A stretch of 30,661 nucleotides of DNA, taken from positions 2,494-33,154 of the IMG/VR virus record IMGVR_UViG_3300001460_000095; one strand, written 5' to 3'. Below the pieces are notes generated by a model. That model saw only the letters and a list, made by a program, of their open reading frames with translations, ran no database searches and was not told where the DNA came from. The translations under genes were made by a program, and so were the position numbers. Shown piece after piece: positions 4,017 to 24,554 of this stretch; position 1 is the stretch's first letter; every line of letters starts with the position of its first letter. Source of the DNA: a virus.

Positions 4017-4640
4017 TTAATGTACAAAAGTTTCTACATTTTCTCCAGCTGGGACTTTTAAATCACCATGGTTATGATGAAGTACAAATTTTGTATCTTT
4101 AAACTCGTTGAAGATCCCAGTCCATATAGGTCTCCAACGATCATTCAATCGTACATTATTTGTTGCACCGCGGTCAGAGTTAAGAACAAAATCTGTATAG
4201 CTACGAAGGTTCATATCAAATAAAGAATCAAAACCATATAAATGGATTTCTTCTGCTTTACACCTGTTTGCTGTGTAATGCGCTGCCATATGCCCACAAT
4301 TGAAATTAGTGTACATGTTGCCAACGCTATCATTGTCAAATAGCTTAGTGTAAGAAGGAAGGTCGGTATAGAATTCTTTTATCTTATGACCAAACCGCAT
4401 TTTAAAATTGCCATTGTTTTGCTCATACCATACTTTAGGTCGGAACCCCATCACCCAATCGTATGGAATTTGAACACTACCTTCTGTTAGTGCAGCAGAC
4501 ATTTTAAAATCGACTATACATGAAGCATAACAATTCTCGACATGAAACGGAGGAACATTACAAACAATCTTTATTCCTTTAGCAGGTTTATATAAACCAG
4601 CCTGATCCCCATTACCAATAACATGCGCTACTCTACCCAT
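4017..4640 (-). CDS. Putative glycan-modifying protein (GT42/DUF115-like)
   Basis: A 207-residue protein starting with a beta-strand and HVIGNGDQA, a small-residue loop like the nucleotide-sugar site of sialyltransferase-like GT42 and DUF115 (MAF) proteins. IVCNVPP, IVDFKMS and later AEEIHLYGFDSLFD follow, in the order seen in those families (conserved N, D and the late GxD). A C-terminal HHNH stretch may be functional. AGAGG lies 8 nt before the ATG. It overlaps the upstream GT-A gene by 8 nt, supporting a role in the same pathway. The assignment rests on pattern only; it could be another Rossmann-like enzyme. Confidence 0.4.
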   Translation of the reverse strand: MGRVAHVIGNGDQAGLYKPAKGIKIVCNVPPFHVENCYASCIVDFKMSAALTEGSVQIPYDWVMGFRPKVWYEQNNGNFKMRFGHKIKEFYTDLPSYTKLFDNDSVGNMYTNFNCGHMAAHYTANRCKAEEIHLYGFDSLFDMNLRSYTDFVLNSDRGATNNVRLNDRWRPIWTGIFNEFKDTKFVLHHNHGDLKVPAGENVETFVH

Positions 4641-5238
4641 TGATCATACCTCTAATTACTTCTTTACCTTTTCCACCAGTCCAATGCATTATCTTTATAT
4701 CTTTAGGAGCTGTACTATCTAAGAGATCAATACGAAGGGTATTATATTCTCTGGGAAGGTCTGTTATATAGGTCAATCTTTTAAGGTCGTCTGTCATCAT
4801 AGAATGTAATACTTCTTGATCTCCAGTTTCAGTTTCATTTAAGGTAATTTTAAATGCCCATTCTTGCAAGATACGAGGTTCACCTTGAAAAGCGACTACT
4901 CCAGAATTATGCCATTTTTGTCCCCTGCGAGTAGTCCAAGGTCTGTCTTCAGCCATAGTAAGCTGGTTCTTACTAGTAAAGTTAAATATCTTATCAGGGC
5001 TAGCTTTGACATGACAATCGATGTCGATCCAACAAACTTTTTCTGCTTTAGTTGCCGCATTAAGCATAGCAAAAGGTTTTTTAAACCAATTCCTTTGATC
5101 CTTAATAGGAGCTTGAAACTTATCAAAATCATATACATGAATTGGAAGTTTGGAATGCTTTAGAAAGTTTTCCATAAACCAATCATACATCCAACTGCTG
5201 GATTGATCAAACCCAGTTATAAACAATTTTTTCATCAT
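4633..5238 (-). CDS. Glycosyltransferase, GT-A fold (GT8-like)
   Basis: A 201-residue protein with the features of a small GT-A enzyme. These are an N-terminal strand (KLFITGF), FKKPFAMLNA before the sugar-nucleotide region, and WIDIDCHV carrying a DxD motif (D72, D74) for the metal and nucleotide diphosphate. NSGVVAFQG and GDQEVLHSMM follow, as in GT8-type proteins, and IMHWTGGKGKE stands at the end, where GT8 enzymes have their HWxGxxKPW-like motif. It is short for GT8 (usually 250-330). Two ATGs in tandem (5238, 5235) overlap the TAA of the upstream GT25-like gene. Donor and acceptor unknown. Confidence 0.7.
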   Translation of the reverse strand: MMKKLFITGFDQSSSWMYDWFMENFLKHSKLPIHVYDFDKFQAPIKDQRNWFKKPFAMLNAATKAEKVCWIDIDCHVKASPDKIFNFTSKNQLTMAEDRPWTTRRGQKWHNSGVVAFQGEPRILQEWAFKITLNETETGDQEVLHSMMTDDLKRLTYITDLPREYNTLRIDLLDSTAPKDIKIMHWTGGKGKEVIRGMING

Positions 5239-5888
5239 TAGACTTTTTCTAACTTGTATGTATGATTAAACATATGCTTGGCCAAGCACCCTTGCTCTTT
5301 TTGAATAGTACTGAACCACTCTCTAACTTCAACTGGCCAGGGATAATATTCTTCTAAAAAAGGAAAGCGGTCGTTGTGCAGATATACGTCGGTTGGCCTA
5401 GCTTCAGTTTTAGCAGTTTCTACTAATATCTTTGCAGCATTAGGTCTTACTCTATATGCATGTGCCCCAGGAAAATATTGCTTGGATACTAACTTATTGC
5501 GACCTAACCCAAGAGGAGTATTAAACTTACCATAAGACGGTTTTCCAAATGAAATACATCCATTGTGTTCTACATTAGGTATAGGCTCCATAATAATAGC
5601 ATCATGTTCAAAGATAGTCACTTCTTCATTAGTCTCAGCTGACATTTGCCACAGAGAAAGATGTGATAGAAACGCAGCAATGCAATTATCAAGACGAGAA
5701 TATACTTCGTTGAACCCAGTTTCTGGGATACCGTACTCTTCAAGTAGAAGTCTTACATCTGAATTGTTGGGAGTAGTAGCTTCATAGTAATCAATGTCCA
5801 TGCCATACCGTGCACCTGACTCAATACACTTAGTTGCTGATGCAACAGACTTTTCATTCTCACGGATCGTAATAACAAAGTTTTTCAT
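5238..5888 (-). CDS. Glycosyltransferase family 25-like protein
   Basis: A 216-residue protein beginning with a FVITIRENEKS strand, then NCIAAFLSHLSLW (the conserved SH..W helix of GT25/LPS glycosyltransferases) and TIFEHDAII (E94-H95-D96), equivalent to the EDD/EHD metal motif of the family. FPGAHAYRVRPNAAKILV matches the following G-A-Y-x-S/R-AA segment. Such enzymes transfer sugars to lipooligosaccharide or hydroxylysine. AGGATAATT precedes the ATG. It is one of four diverged paralogs in the island (also at 5891, 8853 and 11701). Confidence 0.75.
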   Translation of the reverse strand: MKNFVITIRENEKSVASATKCIESGARYGMDIDYYEATTPNNSDVRLLLEEYGIPETGFNEVYSRLDNCIAAFLSHLSLWQMSAETNEEVTIFEHDAIIMEPIPNVEHNGCISFGKPSYGKFNTPLGLGRNKLVSKQYFPGAHAYRVRPNAAKILVETAKTEARPTDVYLHNDRFPFLEEYYPWPVEVREWFSTIQKEQGCLAKHMFNHTYKLEKV

Positions 5889-5890
5889 AA

Positions 5891-6745
5891 TTATCCTGTA
5901 GTTGTAGACTCAATTCTTTGCAGTTTTGTCATGTAAGGAAATACTTGATTGCATTTAATTAACTGTCGACACATCAAAGCATCATTGGGCCACACACCAT
6001 GTTCTTCTACTAAACCCAACATTTTTCTACATGATTTTCCTGAGATGAAATAAGCTGAATTACCAGCTAACCCTTGTGGGACTGTTTTATCATCATCCAC
6101 CCATGGCACAGAACCTATTCTATATGCATAGCCACCATAATCATGTTTTGTTTTTACAGAACCAAAGGGTCCATCCTCAAGGACCGTCCGTTGGTGATAC
6201 AACATAGATTTTCTTGTTGATCCTCTAGGATCATTTAATCCTACTATTCCTCTAGTCGCAAGTTCCATTCCATTAGTACTAATCTTCTTTGTAATTACTG
6301 CGTCATGTTCAAATACAAATCCACCATCAAAAAGAGACAATTGTTCCCACGCTCGATAGTGTGAGATAGCAGCTGAAAATACTTTCAATTGATCTTTAGC
6401 TTGGTATCCAGTAAGTGTTAGTCCAGATTTAAGATCTCTTCGTACTTCACCAGCTGGAGGATATCTCCACCAAGAACGATCCATACCAAATCCCATCCGA
6501 GAATTACGTAACCAATAATCTAGTGTCGCTGGCACGGTTGCTGGTAGAATAGATGGAGTAAGCTCGCTATCAGTTGATATGATAGAGTCTATTACTTGTC
6601 GAGCACCTATCATTGACTTTGGATTATTATGATCAGCAATAATTATTGCTGGATAGAAACTTGTCATTTGTTCATCCACCACATCCTGCTGTCTGGTATT
6701 CCAACTAGAATTAAAAATTGCCTCTTGAATATTTTCGTCCTTCAT
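5891..6745 (-). CDS. Glycosyltransferase family 25-like protein (long form)
   Basis: A 284-residue GT25-like protein. AAISHYRAWEQL is the SH..W helix, FVFEHDAVI (E146-H147-D148) is the metal motif, and AGNSAYFISGKSCRKML is followed by HGVWPNDALM, which fits the late acceptor-site aspartate. The N-terminal 110 residues are longer than in its paralogs and include a segment rich in W, R and P of unknown role. An AGGATAT ribosome site precedes the ATG. It lies 2 nt upstream of another GT25-like gene, so the two may add successive sugars. Confidence 0.7.
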   Translation of the reverse strand: MKDENIQEAIFNSSWNTRQQDVVDEQMTSFYPAIIIADHNNPKSMIGARQVIDSIISTDSELTPSILPATVPATLDYWLRNSRMGFGMDRSWWRYPPAGEVRRDLKSGLTLTGYQAKDQLKVFSAAISHYRAWEQLSLFDGGFVFEHDAVITKKISTNGMELATRGIVGLNDPRGSTRKSMLYHQRTVLEDGPFGSVKTKHDYGGYAYRIGSVPWVDDDKTVPQGLAGNSAYFISGKSCRKMLGLVEEHGVWPNDALMCRQLIKCNQVFPYMTKLQRIESTTTG

Positions 6746-6754
6746 GAGTATATC

Positions 6755-7333
6755 CTACTTTTGCTTTTGCATAACTGTATAGCCCACGTTTTCAACATTA
6801 CGTTCAATAATCTTCCACGGATAATCTAAGCAAAAGTTTTGCATACAATCATATAATCGACTGTCTTTCTTACCGTGTAACACGCTTGTGTCATGAGCAA
6901 TAATGTATCTATTTATATTGCTTTGATGCAGACGCAGCTCTTGAATTAGGTGCATAGGGTGATGATACGAGTCAATTACTAGCATATCTGCTTTTTTTGT
7001 TGATTTAATTGCAATTGAGCTTTCTTCAAGAACACGTAGTGTAATATTGTTGTCGATAGCATATTGTTCTGCAAGTGGTTGTAAAAACAATTTGTATCTT
7101 GAAGTATCAATATCTACAAGCTGAACTTCTTTAGGATTACATAACAGTGCAGTAGATGCTGTCCCACCTTGGTGGGTGCCCAACTCAAGATAGGAGTTAC
7201 ACTCTTTCATATACTTCTTAATGCCATGATGAATATCACAATAGTTTTCGCCATGCTCTTCTTCTTGCTGTCTTATAATATCTTTGTTAAATTCTTCTAC
7301 AGATTTTACGTGACCTAGTTCTGAGTTAATCAT
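6755..7333 (-). CDS. SAM-dependent methyltransferase-like protein
   Basis: A 192-residue class I methyltransferase fold. YLELGTHQGGTAS (motif I, residues 48-60) is followed by QLVDID, which ends in the acidic residue that would bind the SAM ribose, and by DMLVIDSYHHP, a metal/hydroxyl-type motif as in the CmcI/Methyltransf_24 group. The start is ATG 7333, which overlaps the stop of the epimerase gene. A longer frame to 7390 exists but would run 65 nt into that gene. It may methylate a sugar hydroxyl or another small molecule of the island pathway. Confidence 0.65.
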   Translation of the reverse strand: MINSELGHVKSVEEFNKDIIRQQEEEHGENYCDIHHGIKKYMKECNSYLELGTHQGGTASTALLCNPKEVQLVDIDTSRYKLFLQPLAEQYAIDNNITLRVLEESSIAIKSTKKADMLVIDSYHHPMHLIQELRLHQSNINRYIIAHDTSVLHGKKDSRLYDCMQNFCLDYPWKIIERNVENVGYTVMQKQK

Positions 7334-8276
7334 AATTTTTTCCAAAGTAGTTTCTATACCATTGAATGAAGTTTTTGACTCCTTGATCAATAGGTGTTGT
7401 TGATTTATATCCCAACTTCTCTATCTTAGTTGTATCAGACCAAGTCTCTAAAGCATCTGCAGGATGATGAGGTTTATAAATCTTTTCTGCGGTCTTATCT
7501 AAATTCTTTTCAATCTCTGAAATGAAATCCATTAGATTTACTTGCTTACCATTACCTATACAATATGTTTCTCGCTCTGACATATTCTGTGATACTATTG
7601 ATATCCCTTGAACAATATCATCAACATAAGTAAAGTCACGTTTCATATCTCCATTATTAAACACATCTATAGCTTTATCAGCTAGAATGTTTTTAGTAAA
7701 ATCAAACAATGCCATATCTGGTCGACCCCAAGGTCCATACACTGTAAAGAATCTTAAACATACTGCATTCTTAATTTTAGATATGTTAAACATATCTTCT
7801 GTTGTTTGCTTTGAGTATCCATATGGGCTTAACTGAGGTCCTAGCTTCTCATCTGGTGCCCATGGTAACGGATTTCCATGCATTACACAACTGGTAGAAG
7901 CAAATAAAACATTCTGTATATCAGCGTCTTCACAAGCTCTAATAAGGTTCATAGTACCTGTAATATTGTTATCTATATATTCATCTGCATGGTCCATTGA
8001 ATATCTAACACCAGCCATAGCAGCTAAATGTAATACCAGATCTGGTCTAATATAATCGATGTAGTGTTGCATAGCATCAGCATCGCGCAAGTCATAGTTT
8101 TCAACAATTATACCATGTTCGCGATCAAGATGCTTTGCTCTGTTTTCTTTTAGTTCGGGATCATAATAGTCATTAAAGTTATCAAAACCATATACTTCCC
8201 AACCATCTTTTTTGAATTTTATGGCTGTGTGAAATCCTATAAAGCCTGCAAGGCCTGTTATTAATATTTTCTTCAT
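7326..8276 (-). CDS. NAD-dependent sugar-nucleotide epimerase (UDP-glucuronate 4-epimerase-like)
   Basis: A 316-residue extended short-chain dehydrogenase. TGLAGFIG at the N-terminus (G8, G11, G14) binds NAD. FDNFNDYYDPELKENR is highly typical of UDP-glucuronate 4-epimerases, as is TVYGPWGRPDMALF. HLAAMAGVRYS, the S127/S129 region and Y152-x3-K156 give the catalytic set, and full family length is present. The likely reaction is interconversion of UDP-glucuronate and UDP-galacturonate, supplying a donor to the neighbouring glycosyltransferases. It overlaps the genes on both sides by a few nt. Confidence 0.88.
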   Translation of the reverse strand: MKKILITGLAGFIGFHTAIKFKKDGWEVYGFDNFNDYYDPELKENRAKHLDREHGIIVENYDLRDADAMQHYIDYIRPDLVLHLAAMAGVRYSMDHADEYIDNNITGTMNLIRACEDADIQNVLFASTSCVMHGNPLPWAPDEKLGPQLSPYGYSKQTTEDMFNISKIKNAVCLRFFTVYGPWGRPDMALFDFTKNILADKAIDVFNNGDMKRDFTYVDDIVQGISIVSQNMSERETYCIGNGKQVNLMDFISEIEKNLDKTAEKIYKPHHPADALETWSDTTKIEKLGYKSTTPIDQGVKNFIQWYRNYFGKNYD

Positions 8277-8839
8277 TTTGCTAACCTAGCCACAAACATT
8301 ATTCCTCCATGTTTAAGACTATTGTACCAAATGTCTTCTACAATCATTCCTGAACTTTTAATTAGATCATTAATTTCTCTATTTGTAGCTTCAAGTGGGT
8401 CCTCATAATGACCTCTACTTTGACTCTCTGCATATTCAATGAATAGTCTACCATTAGGGTTAAGTTGATCTTTCCATGTGGCCATAGTTTTTACTGGATC
8501 AATAGTATGGTCAAATGAATTAGAATAAACTATATCAGCCTTGCCAATCCATTCTTTTTTTGGAATTGTGAAATCATGGTGGACAGTATCTTTAATCCCA
8601 ACAGCTGTTTCACTAATTTCAGTTCCTATTACATATGCATGTTCATAGATTTCTTTAAAATACGCCTGCTCTGCACCGCTTCTTGTCCCGTGACATATTA
8701 TAAACCCAGGCATTGTTTTATATTCACATATTCTTTTTATTATCCTTCTAACAACATATACCCAGTCAACTTTAGCTTTATTTGTTTCAGTTTGGGCTTG
8801 AACATAATCGTCATAGTCTTTGTATTCATATACTCGCAT
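8273..8839 (-). CDS. SAM-dependent methyltransferase-like protein
   Basis: A 188-residue protein. FIICHGTRSGAEQAYF resembles the ExGTRxGxEQxYF motif I of a group of small methyltransferases, VIGTEIS follows as motif II, ADIVYSNSFDH as motif IV, and LNPNGRLFIEY as the usual LkPGG-type strand. ATG 8839 is preferred because GGAG sits 7 nt upstream and this avoids overlap with the preceding gene; the frame extends to 8896. Its ATGA overlap with the epimerase gene suggests coupled expression. Substrate unknown, perhaps a sugar of the same glycan. Confidence 0.65.
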   Translation of the reverse strand: MRVYEYKDYDDYVQAQTETNKAKVDWVYVVRRIIKRICEYKTMPGFIICHGTRSGAEQAYFKEIYEHAYVIGTEISETAVGIKDTVHHDFTIPKKEWIGKADIVYSNSFDHTIDPVKTMATWKDQLNPNGRLFIEYAESQSRGHYEDPLEATNREINDLIKSSGMIVEDIWYNSLKHGGIMFVARLAK

Positions 8840-8852
8840 TTGAGAACTCCGG

Positions 8853-9539
8853 TTATACGCTATCAAATTGTACACCAGCTGTTGATGTTGGTACAAATTC
8901 TAGTTTAGTTTTTATTGCACCACGATGAGTGTCCCATTGACTCTCATGTAAAGCATTTCCACCTACTACGGGCAGTCGTTGATGATATGGTGTTATTTTT
9001 ATTTCTTGTTCAGAATTGATATATCTGTTCATATTATCATGTCCAGCAAACCCTATTCGTTCATATATATCATTATATTTAAATGCACTGTCTGGGTTAC
9101 AAGTATACCCATGAGTAGATTGTTCTCTCATGCACAAATTAACAACCTTTGAAGCATATGGTTGACCCAGATCAAGGTTCCTGTTTACTATTGCATCATG
9201 TTCAAGAACAATACTGGTGTGGCCATCTTTAATAATCTTTTGTCTTACCATATAATGAGACATCGTCATACATTGCTGCATAACTATCATTCTATTCTCA
9301 ATCTCTTTAGTAGGCTCTTGGCCAGCTTTTTTTCGATAATTGCCAAGAAGTCTTTCTCTATAGTCTTCTCTAACAGGCCAGCCTGGATAATACTTTTCTA
9401 AAGTATAAGGTGTAATAGCATCAAAGAGCTTTGGAGTAATGTTATGCTTTCTACAAGATTCTACACATCTATTAGTAAGACTTATTACTTTATCAGTACC
9501 AAATGTGTTGATGGTTGTTATAATATAGGCATTAAACAT
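8853..9539 (-). CDS. Glycosyltransferase family 25-like protein
   Basis: A 228-residue protein starting AYIITTINTFG, with an FDAITP segment near residue 40 that parallels the YDAVxP segment of GT25 proteins, a CMTMSHYMVRQ helix, and IVLEHDAIV (E113-H114-D115). A late GGNALHESQWDTH replaces the usual A-Y-x-S-AA segment, so it is a diverged member. ATG 9539 overlaps the TAA of the upstream GT-A gene (TAATG). The frame could begin 15 nt earlier, but the overlap style of the region supports 9539. Confidence 0.6.
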   Translation of the reverse strand: MFNAYIITTINTFGTDKVISLTNRCVESCRKHNITPKLFDAITPYTLEKYYPGWPVREDYRERLLGNYRKKAGQEPTKEIENRMIVMQQCMTMSHYMVRQKIIKDGHTSIVLEHDAIVNRNLDLGQPYASKVVNLCMREQSTHGYTCNPDSAFKYNDIYERIGFAGHDNMNRYINSEQEIKITPYHQRLPVVGGNALHESQWDTHRGAIKTKLEFVPTSTAGVQFDSV

Positions 9540-10345
9540 TAAGGAAGCTGCCACTCTGATTGTGGTCTGTTAACGATAGTGTAATGCCAATGACCATCAT
9601 GATTATCAGCGTTTCTTAGCTGAACATGACACAACTTTGCGTCTCTATCATCTCTACCATCAAACACAGGCCTTGGTGTCTTATCTGCATTGCCAGCATA
9701 ATGAATTTGAGTATTCCATCCATGATCCATTTCTGTAATATCCATATTTGCAACAAACATCATAGCATGTAGATAGTTTTGATCAATAGTATAGAATTTA
9801 GGTAATGACGTTCCTCTAATATAAGTGACATATTCATTAAATGCATCAAAGCCTTTTCGAGCTTTTTCTCTACCTTCAGGTGTGTACAAAACTACCCCAG
9901 TGTTGAATACCTTCATATCACCATTATCGTTTACTGGCATGCGTTTATTATATTTTCTCAATATATAATTGCTCCAGAGAGTGTCAGTCTTTTTATTAAA
10001 CATCCCCTCTCCTTTACCTCTAGTGATTTCCTTATGTAGTTCTCTACATATTCCAATGTCCGCTACATCTTGATCAAATATACTTTCTTGTAATCCTTCT
10101 ACAGCAAATACGTCTGTGTCTGCAAATAAGATATTATCATACTCTTCAAATCGCTTGCCCCAGATAGGTTCAAATGCATTGTAGTATTGTGGAATGTCAG
10201 TATACTCTTGGGCCCATCTTGGGTTAGTTTTAAACTGATACTCAGCTCCAATACGCTCTGCATAAGTTCTCATGTTTTCTACACCGTATTTAACAGCGTC
10301 TCCTGGTGTTCCTAACCAGTATTGATATATTAAGTTCTTTACCAT
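9539..10345 (-). CDS. Glycosyltransferase, GT-A fold with DxD motif
   Basis: A 268-residue protein. It opens with LIYQYWLG and AYAERIGAEY-type spacing (TYAERIGAEY), has NILFADTDVF carrying D76-T77-D78 at the end of the nucleotide half, then VFNTGVVLYT and YTIDQNYLHAMM, the order expected in GT8/GT32-like enzymes. A late HVQLRNADNH region may carry the final histidine ligand. It is clearly paralogous to the protein at 10941, which shares the LIYQ start and the RIGA segment. It overlaps the upstream methyltransferase gene by 7 nt. Confidence 0.7.
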   Translation of the reverse strand: MVKNLIYQYWLGTPGDAVKYGVENMRTYAERIGAEYQFKTNPRWAQEYTDIPQYYNAFEPIWGKRFEEYDNILFADTDVFAVEGLQESIFDQDVADIGICRELHKEITRGKGEGMFNKKTDTLWSNYILRKYNKRMPVNDNGDMKVFNTGVVLYTPEGREKARKGFDAFNEYVTYIRGTSLPKFYTIDQNYLHAMMFVANMDITEMDHGWNTQIHYAGNADKTPRPVFDGRDDRDAKLCHVQLRNADNHDGHWHYTIVNRPQSEWQLP

Positions 10346-10944
10346 GGTTTAGTTGCCTCTACTACAGCTGAATGAAATGCTCTTATATTGCCAGGAGTGT
10401 CTATGTTACTAAACGCTGGCAACCCGCTTTGTTGATATTTGCACTCTCTTACATTAGTATACCCTAAATCTTTGAGGGTGTCAATCAATTCTTTTTTGTT
10501 CCATATGTGCTTATGTTCACCATTCTGATACATTATCCCTTCTGCACATTGATCTTGGATTCTCATAAACTCGCTTCCTGCAGGAGCAAACTTATGCTTA
10601 ACAACATAAAATTGGTAATAATGTTGAACCCATGAATGTTCAGTTAAGTCGTTGTCTTGACGCAGCCATTCGACAAACTCCATTGGAGGCCAGATGGAAC
10701 GGATAACTCCACCTGGTTTCATAATTCTCATCATCTCATTAAAGAAGTTAATTCCCTGATCTTTAGTTAGGTGTTCAATAAAATGTTCACTATACACTCC
10801 ATTGTATGTGTCTTCCCAAACACCCTTCATTGGAAGTTTTGTTAAATCACACTTCTCAACACCCTTTGCAGGATCAGCAACATCTCTTACAGCATCCCAG
10901 TTTAGTCCTCGTTTGGCACCAGCTGCTATCTCTAACAGTTTCAT
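10339..10944 (-). CDS. Class I SAM methyltransferase (Methyltransf_11-like)
   Basis: A 201-residue protein. LLEIAAGAKRG at residues 3-13 is a short motif I at the very N-terminus, VYSEHFIEHL resembles the D/SxxHxxEH motif IV of Methyltransf_11 proteins, and FFNEMMRIMKPGGVIR is a standard motif VI. The C-terminal third has HIWNKKELIDTLKDLGY, common in phage and glycan-cluster methyltransferases. AAGGG stands upstream of the ATG. It lies between two paralogous GT-A genes, suggesting methylation of the growing glycan. Confidence 0.75.
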   Translation of the reverse strand: MKLLEIAAGAKRGLNWDAVRDVADPAKGVEKCDLTKLPMKGVWEDTYNGVYSEHFIEHLTKDQGINFFNEMMRIMKPGGVIRSIWPPMEFVEWLRQDNDLTEHSWVQHYYQFYVVKHKFAPAGSEFMRIQDQCAEGIMYQNGEHKHIWNKKELIDTLKDLGYTNVRECKYQQSGLPAFSNIDTPGNIRAFHSAVVEATKPW

Positions 10945-11741
10945 CTCATATCCCTTATACCTACCAACTTAGCTAATTCAGCAATATTCTCTCCTTCTTG
11001 CGGTAAAACAGTTTTATGAAAGAAATGTATAAAATGAGCTTCTTTAAGTTTATCATTAGGTACTGCATTATACAACCCATTCCATTTCCAGTCAAGATGT
11101 TTCAGTCTCATCTTCTCTTCACGTATCCAAGTATTGAGAAGTGTCTGATCTGTTGACCACTTCCAAGGACCCATACCATCAATGAATGGTTTGAACCTTG
11201 GCCGTCTTAGGAATTGCGCTGGAGTTTCACCATTAAGATACTTGCCCATAGATTTATTCATTAACATCATACCCATGTTAAAGAACTCTGCCCCAAGATT
11301 ATTCCATTTCCAATCAATGTGTTTAAGAGATGCATATTGCATTCGAGAGTAGTTAGTTATCTTTTGTTGGTATCGTTCACCAAGTGGCATTTCCCTTTCA
11401 ATAACACCTGCAAAGTCAATGTCATGATCTATCTCGTCAAATAGATTAGGAGCTGTTTCTCTAATGTAGATGTCACCATCAATTAAACCAATTTTATCAT
11501 ATTGGTCAAAGTATCCAAATGCGTTTTCCTTCTCATAGATAGGAAGGAACCCACCATACTTACCGTATGATTCATTTGATCTATTTGTTTGAAAAACGTC
11601 TGGCTTGATCATAAGAATTGGACTTCTTTGAACAATATGATCGGCGCCTATTCTATCTGCATATGCTTTTACTGATGCAATACAGAAGTCGTAAATATTT
11701 TTACGCTTGCCCGTGTATACTTGGTATATCAATGTCTTCAT
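10941..11741 (-). CDS. Glycosyltransferase, GT-A fold with DGD motif
   Basis: A 266-residue paralog of the protein at 9539. It starts TLIYQVYTG, has AYADRIGADH, then KIGLIDGDIYI with D88-G89-D90 as the metal site, FFNMGMMLMN in place of the FNTGV segment, STDQTLLNTWI, and a late HFIHFFHKT. These follow the GT8-like order. The C-terminal 13 codons lie inside the 5' end-proximal overlap with the upstream GT25-like gene (41 nt shared at 11701-11741), an unusually long overlap for this window. The donor sugar cannot be inferred. Confidence 0.7.
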   Translation of the reverse strand: MKTLIYQVYTGKRKNIYDFCIASVKAYADRIGADHIVQRSPILMIKPDVFQTNRSNESYGKYGGFLPIYEKENAFGYFDQYDKIGLIDGDIYIRETAPNLFDEIDHDIDFAGVIEREMPLGERYQQKITNYSRMQYASLKHIDWKWNNLGAEFFNMGMMLMNKSMGKYLNGETPAQFLRRPRFKPFIDGMGPWKWSTDQTLLNTWIREEKMRLKHLDWKWNGLYNAVPNDKLKEAHFIHFFHKTVLPQEGENIAELAKLVGIRDMR

Positions 11742-12348
11742 AATCTAGACCTATAAATTTACGGTTGGGAGTGACATGGTCAATAGTATTTAGACCATCA
11801 AAATTAATCTGTTCAATATAGTGAAAGTCATTCATTTTCTTTTGTCTGTTATAGTTTAAAATTTCACAAAGGTGACCGTCACTATTCATACGAATAGGAC
11901 GGGCAACAGCTTTTGCAACTAGTCTCTCTGCAATAGGAGGAGTTATATAATATCCAGATCCAGGTGCCATATGTATTCCTGTTTCTCCATAATCTCTGTT
12001 GATAAAAGACAAAAACTTATACCCTTCTTTTGACAGATCAGGTAGCGGTTTGATCAATTTTGAATCATGTTCAATAACTATGAGTGGGCCTCTATGTACA
12101 CATTTACACCACAATTCAAAATGACTATACCACACTGCTTTTTCTGTAGCTGTAAACGGTCGTTTCTTTCCCACTGTTTTCATTGGGTGGAAATCAAGTT
12201 TAGATTTGTATGCTAAATCTTTAGGCGTGACAGCGTCAAATGGTTTTAGACTATAGTCTCCCCAAGACGGTCGGCATTCTCTTGTGTACATTAGCGAAAT
12301 GGGATGGTCCTGCATATTAATCATATATATTGGAATATTACTTTTCAT
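11701..12348 (-). CDS. Glycosyltransferase family 25-like protein
   Basis: A 215-residue protein. PIYMINMQDHPI is the first strand, FDAVTPKDL parallels the GT25 YDAVDG region, TATEKAVWYSHFELW is the SH..W helix, and LIVIEHDSKLI (E93-H94-D95) is the metal motif. GSGYYITPPIAERLV is the late A-Y-x-S-AA equivalent, followed by SDGHLCE, which has the acceptor-site aspartate. All GT25 landmarks are present in compact form. A strong GGAGGG site lies 2-3 nt before the ATG. It ends 41 nt inside the next gene. Confidence 0.72.
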   Translation of the reverse strand: MKSNIPIYMINMQDHPISLMYTRECRPSWGDYSLKPFDAVTPKDLAYKSKLDFHPMKTVGKKRPFTATEKAVWYSHFELWCKCVHRGPLIVIEHDSKLIKPLPDLSKEGYKFLSFINRDYGETGIHMAPGSGYYITPPIAERLVAKAVARPIRMNSDGHLCEILNYNRQKKMNDFHYIEQINFDGLNTIDHVTPNRKFIGLDYEDIDIPSIHGQA

Positions 12349-12940
12349 AGCCCTCCACAGACCGCAAGTCCATATTTACTTCTAAAGTATCACAATTGTG
12401 ATATGCTATCATATAATCATGGATAGAAACTCTAATTGGATCTGACACTTTAACTTCTTTTAACATCTCAATTGCCCCAATTGGATCCATAAGATAATTT
12501 TTACGGGTTGTCAGGTTAGTAGGATCTGATGGAAACCTGTAAGAAGTTTTTAAATCAGCATAATAACCATCGAGCATTGGACGAGGAAGTGATCTCATAT
12601 CATCTACTAATTGATTACCAGCAAAAGATATAATATACTGTCGATCTAATATTCTAGCTTTTTTTGCTATGCTAAAAAATCCATACCACTCTTTCATCTT
12701 AAAAGTATTCAAAGCTCTCTCATATAGCGGTAGCTTCTTTACTCCTATACTTTCATATGAATTGTTTATAATTTGATCAGTGCTAGGAAATGGTTGGAGA
12801 GTGCACTTGTATCCATATTGTTCAAATGATTGAACAGTTTGAACGAGCCTTGCAGAGTCTGTCATTCTCTCTGCTGTCGTCGCCTCATACAATACAAATA
12901 TCTTTGTGTCTTTAGGGGCATAAAATGATTCTAAACTCAT
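12338..12940 (-). CDS. Protein of unknown function next to the radical SAM gene
   Basis: A 200-residue protein with no motif I can name. It has an early beta-strand (TKIFVLYEATT), then SFEQYGYKCTLQPFPST, which loosely recalls the first strand and YDA region of GT25 proteins. It then continues with helical, aromatic-rich sequence (KMKEWYGFF) and a strand, YIISFAGNQLVDD. No EHD or DxD metal motif is visible, so it could be a degenerate GT25 relative or an unrelated partner. It starts in ATGA overlap with the radical SAM gene, so the two are probably coupled. Confidence 0.55.
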   Translation of the reverse strand: MSLESFYAPKDTKIFVLYEATTAERMTDSARLVQTVQSFEQYGYKCTLQPFPSTDQIINNSYESIGVKKLPLYERALNTFKMKEWYGFFSIAKKARILDRQYIISFAGNQLVDDMRSLPRPMLDGYYADLKTSYRFPSDPTNLTTRKNYLMDPIGAIEMLKEVKVSDPIRVSIHDYMIAYHNCDTLEVNMDLRSVEGYEK

Positions 12941-13896
12941 CTGTAATCTTCCAAGCTAAATTTTGTTCCATACATCTTATTGTTGGTTCGTCCATGATTA
13001 GTATACACCATAACCTCTGGATCGTCAATTAAAAAATCACAACTTTGGCAATAATCTGGATAATTGCCTGTTGTATGATCATCACGTAGTTTATTGTATT
13101 TATCACCATTCCATATCTCTTCTAATGAATTAGTTGATCCGTGTCCTAACACAGCTTCATCATCTCTTCCAAGCACCTGACAGCACGGATGTATAGCTCC
13201 AGTGTTGCCATCAAGGCCACCAGCCCTGATAACAATATCAGGACTAAAAGGCCTACCACAAGTTTTTTTTGAACCTTCTCTATCATATACTGGATCATAC
13301 ACTCCACTCCAATTATGCATCTTCCAAATCTCTGTTTGGACATTAGCGGATTGTACTATACGTTTATATTGCTCAACCTCAAAGTCAATGCTATCATTAT
13401 CAAGGATTAAATGATATGTAGCTACTATACATTTTGATTTAGATTTAGTTACATACCGTTTCATCTCATGTAGATTGCTTATAGTTCTATAAAAGTTTTT
13501 GCTATTCATCCATTTGCTGTACGTATCGTAATCATATCCTACAATAGAAAAACGAAAGAATCCTAATCCTGCATCGACACATTCTTCCATAAAGGTGCCA
13601 CTCATTTTATATCCATTCGAAAAGATTACAGATTGTGCACCTGCATCCGTGACAACTTTAATATATTCAGGTAAGTTTTTTACTATTGTAGCTTCACCTG
13701 AGCCGTCTAAATTAACAACACCTAGGCCTTTATCAACTAGTTGATTAACATAGCCTTTGAATTCATCCAAAGGCATTTTACCAGTCCAGTTCTTACCCCT
13801 AGCCCCAGTCTTACCTTCTGGAGTAGTTTGCGGACACATTTGGCATGTGTAATTACAACCACCATTAATTTCAATTACTGCGCGATCGACTTCCAT
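12937..13896 (-). CDS. Radical SAM enzyme with C-terminal cysteine cluster
   Basis: A 319-residue protein. CNYTCQMC gives C14-x3-C18-x2-C21, the canonical radical SAM [4Fe-4S] motif, right after the AVIEINGGC strand. VVNLDGSGEAT is the GGE-like motif. The C-terminal half has HPCCQVLG, LEEIWNGDKYNKLR and DYCQSCDF, the arrangement of a SPASM/Twitch auxiliary-cluster domain. Such enzymes modify peptides or sugars. It is flanked by an unknown protein (ATGA overlap) and a possible GT-B protein. GGATGG precedes the ATG. A complete radical SAM/SPASM-like enzyme in a phage glycan island is unusual; its substrate is unknown. Confidence 0.85.
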   Translation of the reverse strand: MEVDRAVIEINGGCNYTCQMCPQTTPEGKTGARGKNWTGKMPLDEFKGYVNQLVDKGLGVVNLDGSGEATIVKNLPEYIKVVTDAGAQSVIFSNGYKMSGTFMEECVDAGLGFFRFSIVGYDYDTYSKWMNSKNFYRTISNLHEMKRYVTKSKSKCIVATYHLILDNDSIDFEVEQYKRIVQSANVQTEIWKMHNWSGVYDPVYDREGSKKTCGRPFSPDIVIRAGGLDGNTGAIHPCCQVLGRDDEAVLGHGSTNSLEEIWNGDKYNKLRDDHTTGNYPDYCQSCDFLIDDPEVMVYTNHGRTNNKMYGTKFSLEDYR

Positions 13897-14718
13897 TTAC
13901 CATCCATTCACAAACTTAAAGAATGTGTCTTTGTAATTATATGCTCTTTCTGTTGCTTGCTCTACCATGTATTCAAACTTCTTTAGATCTCTATCTATAT
14001 AAAAACCATCTCTAGTTACTACTGCAGCAGGAGTATGCCACGTTGATATATTAGAGGTGCCAATAACTATATGAGGCTTGAAAAGATTCTTAGAAATATA
14101 GTGCCACATACCCTCATAAGATAAACAAACCTCGCATGTTCGTATATGATACAACACCTCTCTAACAGGAGTTCTATAATCTACTTCTACAATATCCCAA
14201 CCAAAGTCTGTTAATCTATCTATAAGTCTTTGCCATTCCCAATCAAGTAGGATGTGTTTATCATTGCCTATCTGTTGTCTCAGGTTAGTTGTAGGCCTCC
14301 AGAGACATATTTTTCTATTAACAGGGGTTGTATCAATTGTAGTATCAAAAGCCCAATAGCGGTACATTTCTGACTGCTTTATTCTATGGATTCCTTGATA
14401 GAACTCTTTGTATAACTCCATGTCATGACTGTCTAATACAACTTCTATGTTGACCATATCAGACCACATGTAACGCTTTTTAACATACTCATAACGCTGA
14501 AAGACCGTTTCTGGATCTTCGTAATGGTACTTATAATTTTTATTATGAAAGAAATGGAGCTGGAATGTAGTAGGTTTTTGATTAACAAAAGCTCTCATAT
14601 GAGCAATGTTCATACCATACATTGTATCGCCAATACCTACAGTTGTCTTCCAACGTATAGTATCTAAACCGTGATTATCTTTCCAGTTGCCTACCCAATG
14701 ATGCCACAGACTGCTCAT
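13897..14718 (-). CDS. Putative GT-B glycosyltransferase (GT9/heptosyltransferase-like)
   Basis: A 273-residue protein. VGIGDTMYGMNIAHMRA near residues 27-43 resembles the GxGD loop followed by a helix at the start of GT9 heptosyltransferases, and KICLWRPTTNLRQQ resembles the strand and substrate loop opening the second Rossmann half. The late CEVCLSYEGMWHYIS...KPHIVIGTS fits the donor-site region, where GT9 enzymes have D-S-G-x-x-H-x-A. Several of the usual residues are changed, so the call is tentative. The gene ends 1 nt before the radical SAM ATG. Confidence 0.45.
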   Translation of the reverse strand: MSSLWHHWVGNWKDNHGLDTIRWKTTVGIGDTMYGMNIAHMRAFVNQKPTTFQLHFFHNKNYKYHYEDPETVFQRYEYVKKRYMWSDMVNIEVVLDSHDMELYKEFYQGIHRIKQSEMYRYWAFDTTIDTTPVNRKICLWRPTTNLRQQIGNDKHILLDWEWQRLIDRLTDFGWDIVEVDYRTPVREVLYHIRTCEVCLSYEGMWHYISKNLFKPHIVIGTSNISTWHTPAAVVTRDGFYIDRDLKKFEYMVEQATERAYNYKDTFFKFVNGW

Positions 14719-14914
14719 AATGATGTAATATCTCTTTTGCTAATGTCATAGCTTCATTAAAGTTTTTACGGAAGCGATTGTTCTTATATCCACTATTTAT
14801 GAAGTATTTTAAACTGTCTATATCACTCAAGTAGTTAGGTAAATCATATGACTTGCGGTGAGATACTAGTTGTTCATATTGATATCGTTTAGATAATGCT
14901 TCAAATAATGTCAT
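14675..14914 (-). CDS. Small protein of unknown function (79 aa)
   Basis: Helical, basic and aromatic-rich, starting MTLFEALSKRYQYEQ. I chose ATG 14914 because it forms an ATGA overlap with the upstream methyltransferase gene. The longer frame to 14989 would lie wholly inside that gene and has an unnatural arginine/serine-rich start. The 3' end overlaps the next gene by 44 nt, so one of the two boundaries may be wrong. No recognised domain. Confidence 0.5.
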   Translation of the reverse strand: MTLFEALSKRYQYEQLVSHRKSYDLPNYLSDIDSLKYFINSGYKNNRFRKNFNEAMTLAKEILHHYEQSVASLGRQLER

Positions 14915-15600
14915 GTGATATCCGCTGGTTCTGCTTCGGGGTCGGCAATTGCTTCCCAGGCATATCCTTGCCCTGCTTCGTTGTTCCATATATCTTCATT
15001 GTTATCATAATTACCTTCCATTTTAAATAGTCCCATAATGCCTGGAGATTTTAAATTAGCTTTGACAGATTTTGCATATTTAATATTAGTGTAAAAAAAG
15101 TATTCAGGTTCAAATCGGGTATCCCATAATTTAAAATGCCGTTTAGTTGCTCCTCTTACAGACGGCTGTTCAATATTGTCAACAAGAATATATCTTGGTC
15201 GTATTTTTATACACGATTTTAAATCCTTTACTGGGGCTTCGTCAATATGATTCCCATCAACAAATATTAAATCAATGTCTTTATGACGAGATTCATTATC
15301 CCATATTACATCAGGATAATATATATGATTATAATATTTTTTTATTTGTCTGTGATTGGTCTGGGCAACCTTGATAGGATCATAACTTGTAATTGATTGA
15401 ATTTCATTAAACACATGAAACATTAATAGTGTAGCGTGGCCAGCAAACATACCAATTTCAATAACATTCTTAGGACGCACTATTTCATTAACTCGTTGAA
15501 AACCTTCAATCAAGTCTTTATTGTTTAAGTCTGTCCATCCCCAACCCTCTTTAGGAAAATGAAGGTAGTGATCGTCAATGTTTAAAATGTTCGAGGCCAT
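14911..15600 (-). CDS. SAM-dependent methyltransferase (Methyltransf_24-like)
   Basis: A 229-residue protein. NVIEIGMFAGHATLLM (residues 45-60) is motif I, SYDP is the ribose-binding acidic end of strand 2, and DLIFVDGNHIDEAPVKDL is the D-G-x-H metal-type motif of the Methyltransf_24/CmcI group, followed by YILVDNIEQPSVRGA. The C-terminus is acidic. O-methylation of a sugar or related product is plausible. Its start overlaps the 3' end of the upstream oxygenase gene by 26 nt. Confidence 0.72.
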   Translation of the reverse strand: MASNILNIDDHYLHFPKEGWGWTDLNNKDLIEGFQRVNEIVRPKNVIEIGMFAGHATLLMFHVFNEIQSITSYDPIKVAQTNHRQIKKYYNHIYYPDVIWDNESRHKDIDLIFVDGNHIDEAPVKDLKSCIKIRPRYILVDNIEQPSVRGATKRHFKLWDTRFEPEYFFYTNIKYAKSVKANLKSPGIMGLFKMEGNYDNNEDIWNNEAGQGYAWEAIADPEAEPADIT

Positions 15601-16189
15601 ATAATTTCACTAAATCCCTATCTGCAGTAAAATGTAAGTTTTTGGAGACAACAGTTTTTCTAGTGTTCTTCTTAATGGGTGGAGATCTGTGCATTAGCAT
15701 TGGAGGAAAGAATATAACATCCCCTTCGACTAAATTAAAATGACTGTAGTTTAAAAACTCAGTAGCTTCAGTGGGATCAGGTAGCTCTATGTAATATACC
15801 ATGGCCAGGTGACCATTATGAGTGTGCCAACCAAAGTCTGACCCAAATGTATATTGTTGGAACCACATTCCTCCCTTATCTTGTATAAGTTTAATACCAT
15901 ATGTTTCTTCAAGCTCAGTATAGTAGGGATCTAATATATCATCTATTATATGCTTATAACGAGCCTTTGGATCACCTTTATCATGATCAACATAAAAGTC
16001 GGTCAGAAACCCCCCTCTCCCAGTGGCTGAGATATCGAGATTTTGAGCTACACTATATTGATGTATAGATTCTAATAGTAAAGGCTTGTGTTTTTCATGA
16101 TCTTCTACTTTAAATATATGAACATGATTTACATTACTAACCTTGGAGGGGTTGGTTGTTAAATTCTTCTTTGTCGTATTCATCATCAT
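15575..16189 (-). CDS. Putative 2OG/Fe(II) oxygenase with HxH motif
   Basis: A 204-residue protein. FGWHTHNGHLAMVYYIELP (H122, H124) followed by GDVIFFPPMLMHRSPP (H167) and R177 matches the pattern of the 2OG-FeII_Oxy_5 family, where HxHxN and a late H with an R ten residues on are conserved. HxH instead of HxD is characteristic of that family rather than a defect, but the ligand set should be treated with care. Three tandem ATGs (16189, 16186, 16183) lie inside the small upstream gene (52-nt overlap). It is the third oxygenase of the window, each from a different subfamily. Confidence 0.65.
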   Translation of the reverse strand: MMMNTTKKNLTTNPSKVSNVNHVHIFKVEDHEKHKPLLLESIHQYSVAQNLDISATGRGGFLTDFYVDHDKGDPKARYKHIIDDILDPYYTELEETYGIKLIQDKGGMWFQQYTFGSDFGWHTHNGHLAMVYYIELPDPTEATEFLNYSHFNLVEGDVIFFPPMLMHRSPPIKKNTRKTVVSKNLHFTADRDLVKLYGLEHFKH

Positions 16190-16330: not shown

Positions 16331-17026
16331 CTAATATCCTAGCATTTCTTTTGTCATTATATAATCTCTTACAAAATCAGATCGGACAATATCTTCCCAT
16401 CCAAAATTAATTACAGTAAAGTTCTTTAGCTGTTCAACAATCTGTAAGAACTTTACAATACCATTTTTTTCATCAGCATACTTAAAATCTGATTGCTTAT
16501 AATCGCCACAGAATATAATTTTACTATCACGGCCTACTCGAGTTATAACAGAGTCTAACTCATGAAAGTTTAAATTTTGCATTTCATCTACGACTATAAT
16601 AGTGTTGTCAAATGTTGTACCTCGTATGAAAGATGTTGACTCAAATTTAATTTGACCTGCTGTTGTCATCTTATTATATGATGCTCGATCACCAAACAAC
16701 TCGTTACATATAGTTTGGTAAGGTGTAGTAAACGCTTCTTCTTTTTCTGCTTTTGTTCCTGGTAAAAATCCCATATCTCTTGTGGGGACCATAGATCTGA
16801 GAATAACTAGCTGGTCGTGAGTGGTTTCTTTATCTAGAATATCCTCAAGTGCAAGATACAAAGCCATGAATGTTTTACCTGTACCAGCTGATCCTGTTAG
16901 TACTAAATTGTCTCTATCATCCCATGCTTTATAAGTTAGTTCTTGATTTTTTGTTAGTGGGTCAAATTGAAGAAGATCGTCCAATCTTACCGACATTGAA
17001 TTATTAACAGTCTTTTGGCGTTTCAT
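16331..17026 (-). CDS. phoH: PhoH-like P-loop ATPase
   Basis: A 231-residue protein. LTKNQELTYKAW gives the Q-like motif ahead of GSAGTGKT (Walker A, residues 45-52). RSMVPTRDMGFLPG is the strongly conserved PhoH segment (RPxVPxGxxxGFLPG-like), IIVVDEMQN (143-151) is Walker B, and IIFCGDYKQSD is the sensor-like motif. Phage PhoH proteins are common in marine T4-like and other phages; a role in RNA metabolism or phosphate stress is proposed but unsettled. The ATG overlaps the stop of the upstream small gene (TAATG) without a clear ribosome site, so it is probably coupled. Confidence 0.92.
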   Translation of the reverse strand: MKRQKTVNNSMSVRLDDLLQFDPLTKNQELTYKAWDDRDNLVLTGSAGTGKTFMALYLALEDILDKETTHDQLVILRSMVPTRDMGFLPGTKAEKEEAFTTPYQTICNELFGDRASYNKMTTAGQIKFESTSFIRGTTFDNTIIVVDEMQNLNFHELDSVITRVGRDSKIIFCGDYKQSDFKYADEKNGIVKFLQIVEQLKNFTVINFGWEDIVRSDFVRDYIMTKEMLGY

Positions 17027-19888: not shown

Positions 19889-20271
19889 TGAGATTCAGGC
19901 ATTGTGAATAACGCTCTAACTCCATCCAACACAGGTATAGGTTTTCGTGCAAATATAACCCATTTGTATGCCCACATGGTATCTGGAGAATTACAATACT
20001 CTCTGAAACTGGCTCCTGTCGTATAAACATCATCACAAACTAATACCTTGTGTTCTTTGTTTCCACTAGCATATTTGTTAAGAGCCAATTCTAAAGGAAC
20101 TCCACCACGTGGAATACCTCTTGCCTTATAAAAAGGTTCAGTCTGATACTCCATAATCATACGAGCTAGTGCTGTCCAACCTTCAATAGTTATAGCATCA
20201 CATTCTATTTTCCATGGCAATTTATTACCAGCGTGGCTTATAAAGTCACCTTCTTGAAACAATTCAATCAC
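19885..20271 (-). CDS. Phosphoribosyltransferase-like protein (OPRT-like, short)
   Basis: 128 residues counted from GTG 20271, whose G is the last base of the TAG of the Fe-S carrier gene. A longer frame from TTG 20301 runs through that gene and is less likely. [13 protein letters not shown] (residues 77-89) is the PRPP-binding signature with D80-D81. [14 protein letters not shown] precedes it, and [17 protein letters not shown] near the start recalls the opening of orotate phosphoribosyltransferase. It is shorter than most family members (170-210). It joins PRPP to a base or acts on another ribose phosphate; its pairing with guaC hints at purine salvage. Confidence 0.72.
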
Positions 20272-20555
20272 TACACACCAAAACTTTCTCCACAACCACA
20301 ATTGGCTGTTGCATTAGGGTTAATTATTTTTAGATACGATCCACCAAGCTCTTGTACATAATCTATTGTGCATCCCAGTATAAACATTTCAGCTAATGGA
20401 TCAATCCATAGATTACCTACAGTAGGTTCTTTATCTGTTTGGCCCCATTCATATTGGAACCCTGCACAGCCACCACCTTTAACAGCTAAGCTAACGGATG
20501 GCTGTCCTGCGACTGCTAAATATTTTTCAGCCGATTCAGTTAGTTGTATTTTCAA
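20271..20555 (-). CDS. A-type Fe-S cluster carrier (IscA/HesB-like)
   Basis: A 94-residue protein starting with KIQLTESA, the usual IscA/SufA beginning. The three cluster cysteines are present: C30 in GGGCAGF, and C86 and C88 in NCGCGESF. The start codon is TTG at 20555 with GGAG 8 nt upstream; no ATG fits the family alignment. These proteins receive and deliver [2Fe-2S]/[4Fe-4S] clusters or iron. HesB-like genes occur in T4-like cyanophages. Candidate clients in this phage are the radical SAM enzyme and host Fe-S proteins. Confidence 0.92.
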   Translation of the reverse strand: MKIQLTESAEKYLAVAGQPSVSLAVKGGGCAGFQYEWGQTDKEPTVGNLWIDPLAEMFILGCTIDYVQELGGSYLKIINPNATANCGCGESFGV

Positions 20556-23785: not shown

Positions 23786-24541
23786 TTAGATATTACTAAT
23801 GTGTTTAATATATTCGGTCATAGAATGATCACTAAAGTTGTCAACTTTACCTTTTTTCAAACCCATCCACATACCATTCAACTTATCTTTAACCCTTTGC
23901 CATTTGGTTAAAGTAATATACGTACCATATGCATTTATATAATGCTGTGTTCCGTGATGAACATATCCCATCAAACGTAGAGGAACTGTAGTAACAATAT
24001 CGTTATTGTTTTTCCATCTGTGATGAACTACACCTAGACTTTTAATATACTTTCTCCAACCTACACGAGGAGATCCATATGTATATAATTCTTCTACTGG
24101 TTGGATGTCAGGATATAAATGACAACGGCTGGACATTATAGTAGCCATTGCTGCTCCTAACGAGTGGCCACAGAACCATAAGTCTTTTTTTATGGTTGCT
24201 TTAGTGTTAAGATCTTTAAGTATTCTAGGCCATAACTCATCAACCTCAGCTTTGAACCCTCTATGAACTCTACTAACAGTCTCAGCTACTACTGGTAATG
24301 CTTTTAGATCTGCACTGATATCATTAAACTCTGTTGGTTCAGTCCCACGGCAGGCAATTACAACATCATCTTTATTAGCAAAACGATATGCCTGAGCTCC
24401 AGCTAAGTTATAAAATTCTGTTGAACTAAAACCTAATTTTTTAGCTTTACTTGTTGCTGTTTTTTTGTTGTTGTATGCAATACTAGCTAGGTTTGCAAAT
24501 AATAGTGATCTTTCTTTAAAACTTAGTTTACTAATAGACAT
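23786..24541 (-). CDS. Class 3 lipase (alpha/beta hydrolase)
   Basis: A 251-residue protein from ATG 24541, with AGGA 8 nt upstream; the longer frame begins with TTG inside the spanin gene. The full lipase_3 layout is present: VIACRGTEPTEFND, GHSLGAA with nucleophile S127, YTYGSPRVG, NNNDIVTTVP with D181, and FSDHSMTEYI with H239. It has no signal peptide. It would hydrolyse acylglycerols or phospholipids. Directly after the spanin pair, it may help open the outer membrane at lysis, though a metabolic role in releasing host fatty acids is possible. Confidence 0.85.
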   Translation of the reverse strand: MSISKLSFKERSLLFANLASIAYNNKKTATSKAKKLGFSSTEFYNLAGAQAYRFANKDDVVIACRGTEPTEFNDISADLKALPVVAETVSRVHRGFKAEVDELWPRILKDLNTKATIKKDLWFCGHSLGAAMATIMSSRCHLYPDIQPVEELYTYGSPRVGWRKYIKSLGVVHHRWKNNNDIVTTVPLRLMGYVHHGTQHYINAYGTYITLTKWQRVKDKLNGMWMGLKKGKVDNFSDHSMTEYIKHISNI

Positions 24542-24554
24542 AATAGATTCCTGA

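Follow-up and report, generated by a model that had tools for sequence, protein, structure and literature searches.

A run of 18 to 19 intact leftward genes, unbroken between positions 4017 and 16189, was characterized in a viral DNA stretch of 30,661 nucleotides (the window), which corresponds to bases 2494-33154 of the 33,154-base IMG/VR virus record IMGVR_UViG_3300001460_000095, itself a fragment. Neighbouring genes of the run mostly overlap, by 1-65 bases, and they represent approximately 12 kb with which a T4-type marine phage would build and trim an unusual chain of sugars. The island reported by a first-pass annotation of the sequence is real, its genes being intact, overlapping, under strong purifying selection, and found in common with hundreds of IMG/VR contigs. 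The single pathway proposed there stands insofar as part of the set is co-inherited, but the set is not fixed and does not move as one piece: a constant frame, an all-or-none cassette centered on a radical SAM enzyme, and a hypervariable middle block were distinguished instead. All island genes described below are encoded on the minus strand.

The constant frame adjoins phoH and comprises u104 and GT8b and, beyond the middle block, GT25x, GT25a, a GT-A-type gene, and the gene at 4017-4640. The first of these, u104 (14675..14914, inner ATG preferred), encodes a small conserved protein and marks the insertion point of the cassette; its conservation was absent from the first-pass annotation, as were the degenerate nature of a GT25 gene at 12338-12940 and three genes located left of the window. 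GT8b (10941..11741) passes the Pfam cut-off for GT8 (PF01501, 5.4e-6) and keeps its DxD motif in 40 of 40 relatives. GT25a (5238..5888; Pfam GT25, 6.5e-8) keeps its EHD motif in 35 of 35, while GT25x (5891..6745) was assigned by hhalign to GT25a (99.8%, E 1e-27), with GT25 proteins in the PDB matched at E 1e-3. Together with GT25b and GT25c, which like GT25a exceed the cut-off of Pfam PF01755, GT25x bears out the earlier count of four GT25-like proteins, and the acidic EHD/EQD motif is kept in 106 of 110 sequences of these four genes. Elsewhere, two GT25 matches lie within one 450-residue open frame (G004:C1:41994-42965), suggesting a fused GT25 pair. The GT-A-type gene (g201, 4633..5238) has a DID motif recognized by eye and falls in no Pfam family. 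The outermost frame gene (g207, 4017..4640) encodes an alpha/beta protein whose only Pfam match is MptE-like, at E 0.076; its AlphaFold model is confident (predicted local distance difference test score, pLDDT, 91), yet no PDB structure was matched under E 0.05, and the GT42 assignment made earlier gained no Pfam or PDB match. Fold matches in BFVD are to unnamed phage proteins (to E 1.7e-12), with weak matches named MptE-like and GT29, and a GT29/GT42/MptE-like origin of this protein is possible.

Conservation of the locus was evaluated by two scans of viral contigs. The first, anchored on the radical SAM protein, identified 394 relatives, and dozens of contigs strongly keep the order RNR (ribonucleotide reductase), GIY, RNase H, phoH, oxygenase, methyltransferase, u104, GT9-like gene, radical SAM gene, GT25c, GT8b, middle block, GT25x, GT25a, GT-A gene, and 4017-4640 gene. 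Because a radical SAM anchor biases this picture, the second scan was anchored on the 4017-4640 protein and identified at least 569 viral contigs. Among the matches listed in the second scan, 36 loci with 9.5 kb upstream were not part of the first set and were used as an independent sample. Scattering of the genes in relatives would have counted against the island as a unit, but in these loci the frame genes are co-inherited: GT25x and GT25a are present in 36 of 36, followed by GT8b (32), the GT-A gene (31), u104 (29), and the flanking phoH (27). The cassette genes are represented far less often (radical SAM and GT9-like genes 1/36 each, GT25c 2/36), indicating that the apparent core position of the radical SAM gene was an artefact of its use as the search anchor.

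The cassette is placed between u104 and GT8b and consists of a GT9-like GT-B gene (u273, 13897..14718), a twitch radical SAM gene (12937..13896), an optional degenerate GT25 gene (u200, 12338..12940), and GT25c (11701..12348; Pfam GT25, 7.6e-8). It is often accompanied on its upstream side by a methyltransferase-like gene (MT229, 14911..15600; Pfam Methyltransf_24, 1.1e-4) and by Ox204 (15575..16189, true start probably internal), whose earlier annotation as a 2-oxoglutarate (2OG)-Fe(II) oxygenase agrees with a match to PHROG 81 at 1.2e-16. In 53 non-redundant loci holding both u104 and GT8b, among which related phages are not independent of each other, the cassette is all-or-none: it is present in 27, where the u104-GT8b gap spans 2.4-4.4 kb, and absent from 26, in 19 of which u104 abuts or overlaps GT8b. 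The GT9-like gene was found in 27/27 loci with the cassette versus 0/26 without it, GT25c in 26/27 versus 0/26, Ox204 in 21/27 versus 0/26, and MT229 in 18/27 versus 0/26. At least four changes of cassette state are required on the PhoH tree (three forced by well-supported branches), and six on the tree of the 4017-4640 protein. The degenerate GT25, located with the radical SAM gene on one side and GT25c on the other, has GT25c as its nearest paralogue (hhalign 95.6%, E 1.3e-8, 159 columns); it is fast-evolving, and its metal-binding EHD motif is replaced in the relatives aligned.

The radical SAM enzyme recognized by the first-pass annotation has Pfam matches to Radical_SAM (2.6e-9) and to a SPASM-type domain (4.8e-9). 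An alignment of 25 diverse members contains approximately 100 invariant residues over 319, including cysteines C14, C18, and C21 of the CxxxCxxC motif as well as C213, C238, C239, C283, and C286, each in 25/25. A full two-cluster SPASM domain, the motif of which comprises seven cysteines (PMC6231123), was rejected, given just five invariant C-terminal cysteines with a different spacing. The number of cysteines fits a one-cluster twitch domain like that of BtrN, which is also the best PDB profile match of the enzyme (8e-9, N-terminal part only). The auxiliary cysteines of BtrN presumably have identical 45- and 3-residue spacings, which is a lead rather than a test. A pattern scan of 84,980 bacterial and archaeal genomes, which misses distant kin because it requires exact short peptides, yielded two full-length relatives, each on a phage-like contig of a metagenome-assembled genome, and the family is essentially virus-only. 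Among 50,697 named phage records, the single relative is phage C48C1, filed in Kyanoviridae, which also has a homologue of the 4017-4640 protein; a literature search under that name returned no match. At nine loci (L011, L053, L057, L058, L052, L061, L063, L070, and L071), some of them close to structural genes, members of the family occur near a second radical SAM protein of ~530 residues, which appears by eye to be of the B12 type; this is a different use of the enzyme.

In 55 of 66 non-redundant loci, C48C1 and unrelated neighbourhoods among them, the radical SAM gene has the GT9-like gene directly upstream, and the pair is the tightest partnership found. The product of the GT9-like gene, previously listed as a possible GT-B protein, was modelled by AlphaFold with a pLDDT of 87, and the best PDB match of the model is the GT9 heptosyltransferase WaaF (E 1.7e-4, template modelling score 0.52); TibC, WaaC, and POMGNT2 are also matched. 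The predicted structure thus supports a GT9-like GT-B fold and a putative glycosyltransferase function.

Between GT8b and GT25x lies the variable middle block, which in the window encodes a methyltransferase-like protein resembling rhamnosyl O-methyltransferase/CmcI (MT211, 6755..7390; Pfam 0.004; found in 15 of 81 loci), a NAD-dependent sugar-nucleotide epimerase (EPI, 7326..8276), a second methyltransferase-like protein (MT207, 8273..8896; Pfam 5e-4), GT25b (8853..9554; Pfam GT25 2.9e-6, EHD in 6/6), GT8a (9539..10345), and a third methyltransferase-like protein (MT201, 10339..10944; Pfam 9e-4, PHROG methyltransferase 4e-5). The epimerase call was strongly upheld by Pfam (Epimerase, 1.6e-47), PHROG (nucleotide-sugar epimerase, 5e-64), and PDB matches (5u4q, 2e-70; 6zl6, 1e-41), with the GxxGFxG and YxxxK motifs kept. 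GT8a falls below the Pfam GT8 cut-off (4.8e-4) but is related to GT8b (hhalign 99.4%). For the four proteins annotated as methyltransferases, namely these three and MT229, Pfam matches do exist, but all are weak and below the cut-off. Across 42 loci, the interior between GT8b and GT25x measures 1.0-7.2 kb and contains 1-10 genes from 34 protein clusters, including GT8 proteins, epimerases, several methyltransferase types (FkbM among them), two sulfotransferase families, UDP-galactopyranose mutase, polysaccharide pyruvyl transferase, and cytidylyl- and nucleotidyl-transferases. These are capping and donor-making functions, a content that fits outer, variable sugars.

Strong purifying selection acts on frame, cassette, and middle alike. 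Median dN/dS values (nonsynonymous to synonymous rate ratios) per gene range from ~0.03 to 0.22, with most genes at 0.03-0.12 and GT25c and the oxygenase at ~0.2, and are comparable to those of the flanking phoH (0.05), RNase H (0.09), and RNR (0.07). Chance is excluded because dN/dS is low and the gene order is common to dozens of contigs; likewise, the sharing of outer genes by hundreds of relatives while inner genes are swapped indicates a real, selected pathway.

The surrounding genes include phoH (16331..17026, minus strand), which has 49% identity to cyanophage P-TIM40 by tblastn, a T4-type RNase H, an inosine monophosphate dehydrogenase/GMP reductase-type protein, and RNR, so that the glycan locus is bordered by phoH, RNR, and RNase H. 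The RNR (21403-23631), judged from its relatives to be of the adenosylcobalamin type, has its best named relative, at 65%, in Rhizobium phage RHph_I1_18, which may be a host hint. Besides the radical SAM locus, the record encodes an IscA-type Fe-S carrier (20271-20555), which was found in 5 of 25 relatives searched, and a class 3 lipase-like gene (23786-24574) is located between RNR and GIY in some relatives and missing from others. No named phage was matched when window bases 1-25000 were compared by Megablast.

At the left end, a tRNA-Pro (TGG; 2526-2602) separates the glycan locus from the genes at 15-2077, which the first-pass annotation had assigned to the same set. These genes lie outside the conserved unit: their close relatives are almost absent from module loci, many of the fetched loci stopping short of that point, and the aminotransferase of 15-830 recurs once (62%). 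Neither this protein nor the oxygenase of 820-1566 has a Pfam match, and the other aminotransferase matches are weak, leaving the suggested amino sugar with that evidence as its sole support. A real amidinotransferase lies just beyond the window (L002:1493-2539, an open reading frame with ambiguous bases; HsvA 4.5e-21, StrB 2.6e-16, SxtG related), together with a fifth GT25 gene on the opposite, plus strand (L002:252-929) and a methyltransferase-like gene on the minus strand (L002:910-1515). In several relatives the methyltransferase/GT25 pair is found again downstream of the frame, in one case accompanied by the amidinotransferase. Relatives of the amidinotransferase occur in 31 other viral contigs, elsewhere in viruses without the module, and it is best treated as belonging to a separate, perhaps cooperating set. 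In one longer relative (G001, L089), a tryptophan-halogenase-like protein adjoins an AMP-binding-enzyme-like protein at ~37.4-40.1 kb, as judged by eye.

These features suggest an operon-like, layered glycan-assembly module, and its acceptor is tentatively placed, as the leading candidate, in the lipo-oligosaccharide (LOS) core of the host. In the proposed order of reactions, GT8b, GT25x, GT25a, the GT-A protein, and the 4017-4640 protein would build a conserved inner oligosaccharide on a pre-existing acceptor in the cytoplasm, to which the middle block would contribute strain-specific sugars and caps, here possibly an epimerised hexuronic acid, further GT25- and GT8-added sugars, and methyl groups. 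The optional cassette would add one extra branch: the GT9-like transferase may attach its sugar, which the twitch radical SAM enzyme, by analogy to BtrN and its kin, would most likely oxidise or epimerise, and GT25c would extend the branch, with the degenerate GT25 perhaps serving as a non-catalytic partner. Remodelling of the host LOS core during infection could block binding by competing phages, or by progeny of the phage itself on debris.

GT9, GT8, and GT25 families are used in lipopolysaccharide (LPS) and LOS core assembly, and extension of the LOS core requires no polymerase, flippase, or O-antigen ligase. Consistent with decoration of an existing acceptor, as first proposed, searches of 15 records (its own and 14 longer relatives) with working positive controls revealed no gene of the Wzy/WaaL or Wzx type, and all island proteins are soluble, none having a transmembrane look. 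The placement of the locus among genes of nucleotide metabolism, with its genes in the window lacking a late-promoter octamer, likewise speaks for the host LOS core. Several points weigh against a host LOS core. TibC, a GT9 protein glycosyltransferase, fits the GT-B fold nearly as well as WaaF; the function of twitch enzymes cannot be predicted from sequence (PMC6231123); and in some contexts the radical SAM gene occurs with no GT25 or GT8 genes nearby. In 5 of 35 relatives, versus ~0.4 expected, GT25x also has a late-promoter-like octamer before it, which suggests late expression in some of them.

The octamer also counts in favour of the strongest rival explanation, that the module builds its glycan in the cytoplasm on a virion protein of the capsid or tail, with a conserved inner and a variable outer part. 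This layering resembles that of chlorovirus glycans, in which a conserved core receives virus-specific decoration from soluble cytoplasmic virus enzymes (PMC7826918), and both TibC and POMGNT2, which appear among the fold matches, glycosylate proteins. Moreover, the oxygenase family PHROG 61 matches both the N-terminal part of GT25a and the C-terminal part of Ox204, suggesting that GT25 and oxygenase may occur fused. Collagen-type hydroxylysine glycosylation, considered on account of this shared match, was rejected when no collagen-like repeat (at least six G-X-Y) was found in the open reading frames of G001. The frame also occurs without any linked virion gene, and the octamer NATAAATA, which precedes many open reading frames in the long-frame tail region of G001, precedes no module gene of the window. 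Expression timing is therefore a mixed guide to the target; a virion protein is a serious but doubtful candidate, over which the host LOS core is slightly favoured.

Cutting across both targets is the proposal that the virus-only twitch radical SAM enzyme and its GT9-like partner form a fixed pair that installs a radically oxidised or epimerised sugar, contributing to a modular glycan on the phage's own virions (or on host LOS). This specific combination seems rather unlikely; if true, the glycan would be the first of any virus to be tailored by a radical SAM enzyme, and its cassette architecture would be exchangeable.

An improbable explanation is that the pathway yields a small diffusible or intracellular glycoside of the aminocyclitol type, using the nearby amidinotransferase. 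The radical SAM enzyme is nearest BtrN, and the amidinotransferase is related to HsvA, StrB, and SxtG, but in the DNA fetched for the 31 scanned amidinotransferase contigs no frame or cassette gene was seen (the module-bearing relative L150 does have an amidinotransferase downstream), module loci almost never include the 15-2077 genes, and glycosyltransferases are many while scaffold enzymes are few. The two other targets raised in the first-pass annotation, a modified peptide and phage DNA, are both disfavoured. Maturation of a glycosylated ribosomally synthesized and post-translationally modified peptide (RiPP) by the radical SAM enzyme and its neighbours would draw on the frequency of twitch/SPASM enzymes in RiPP systems (PMC6231123) and on the small proteins u104 and h61 nearby; it is very improbable, since no precursor-like peptide was seen, RiPP-maturase NCBIfam models score far under their cut-offs, and u104 is kept in 26 loci lacking the cassette. 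The radical SAM domain also begins near residue 4, and because the enzyme opens directly with that domain it has no RiPP recognition element. T4-type phages can glycosylate DNA, and oxygenases are present here. Even so, there is scant likelihood of a DNA target: a thymidylate synthase/dCMP hydroxymethylase family match occurs in 1 of 14 long relatives, a 147-kb one having none, and a TET/JBP search made without a positive control matched 0 of 15 records. Lastly, the notion that the genes are non-functional stuffer DNA, raised for P-SSM2-type clusters near phoH (PMC3037559), is effectively refuted by the purifying selection on them, with catalytic motifs kept and gene order held over deep divergence.

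The layered architecture offers a guide to which genes to assay first, the constant part pointing to a conserved acceptor and the swappable parts to outer sugars that are likely recognised. The nearly virus-only radical SAM family, with a GT-B transferase usually adjoining, is a concrete target for enzymology.

The closest known kind of system is the glycosyltransferase/LPS cluster of T4-type cyanophages and pelagimyophages, a kind already known from the Sullivan 2010, pelagimyophage 2020, and environmental-genome 2017 studies. Large sugar-gene clusters are likewise present in the T4-type marine phages P-SSM2, S-SSM7, and S-SM2 (PMC3037559), and in P-SSM2 one LPS cluster is near phoH and close to tRNAs, as phoH is adjacent in the window and its relatives. 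Sullivan et al. 2010 left open whether such clusters are functional or stuffer (PMC3037559), a point on which the present locus shows function through selection and a fixed order across hundreds of uncultured relatives. No cyanophage match was found for the radical SAM, 4017-4640, GT8b, GT25c, or GT25a proteins; among phage records the first four matched C48C1 alone, for two of the four genes, and GT25a had one weak match, to a marine virus. In pelagimyophages, variable islands that are rich in glycosyltransferases and contain radical SAM cassettes were described in 2020, with a proposed change of the host surface (PMC7029224). Their host-recognition cluster shares a T4-type marine setting, GT8-rich LPS-type genes, and a proposed role against co-infection, but it is nonsyntenic and is found with tail fibre genes in the interval from VrlC to gp14, whereas the locus described here lies beside phoH in a constant frame. 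Environmental T4-type genomes reported in 2017 share the A-type carrier and contain many radical SAM genes, there tied to general Fe-S metabolism rather than a glycan cassette (PMC5332604). The fixed frame, the all-or-none cassette, the GT9-like/radical SAM pair, and the degenerate GT25 were not found described.

With BtrN, a twitch radical SAM dehydrogenase (PDB 4m7s, 4m7t), the phage enzyme shares enough C-terminal cysteines for one fully ligated auxiliary cluster; it differs in having an extra adjacent invariant cysteine, and homology was shown just for the N-terminal half. To our knowledge, no radical SAM enzyme takes part in the glycan machinery of chlorovirus PBCV-1. That eukaryotic virus also differs in having a proven N-glycan on its capsid protein, while the two are alike in encoding soluble transferases and methyltransferase functions (a methyltransferase in the chlorovirus) for a conserved core with variable decoration (PMC7826918).

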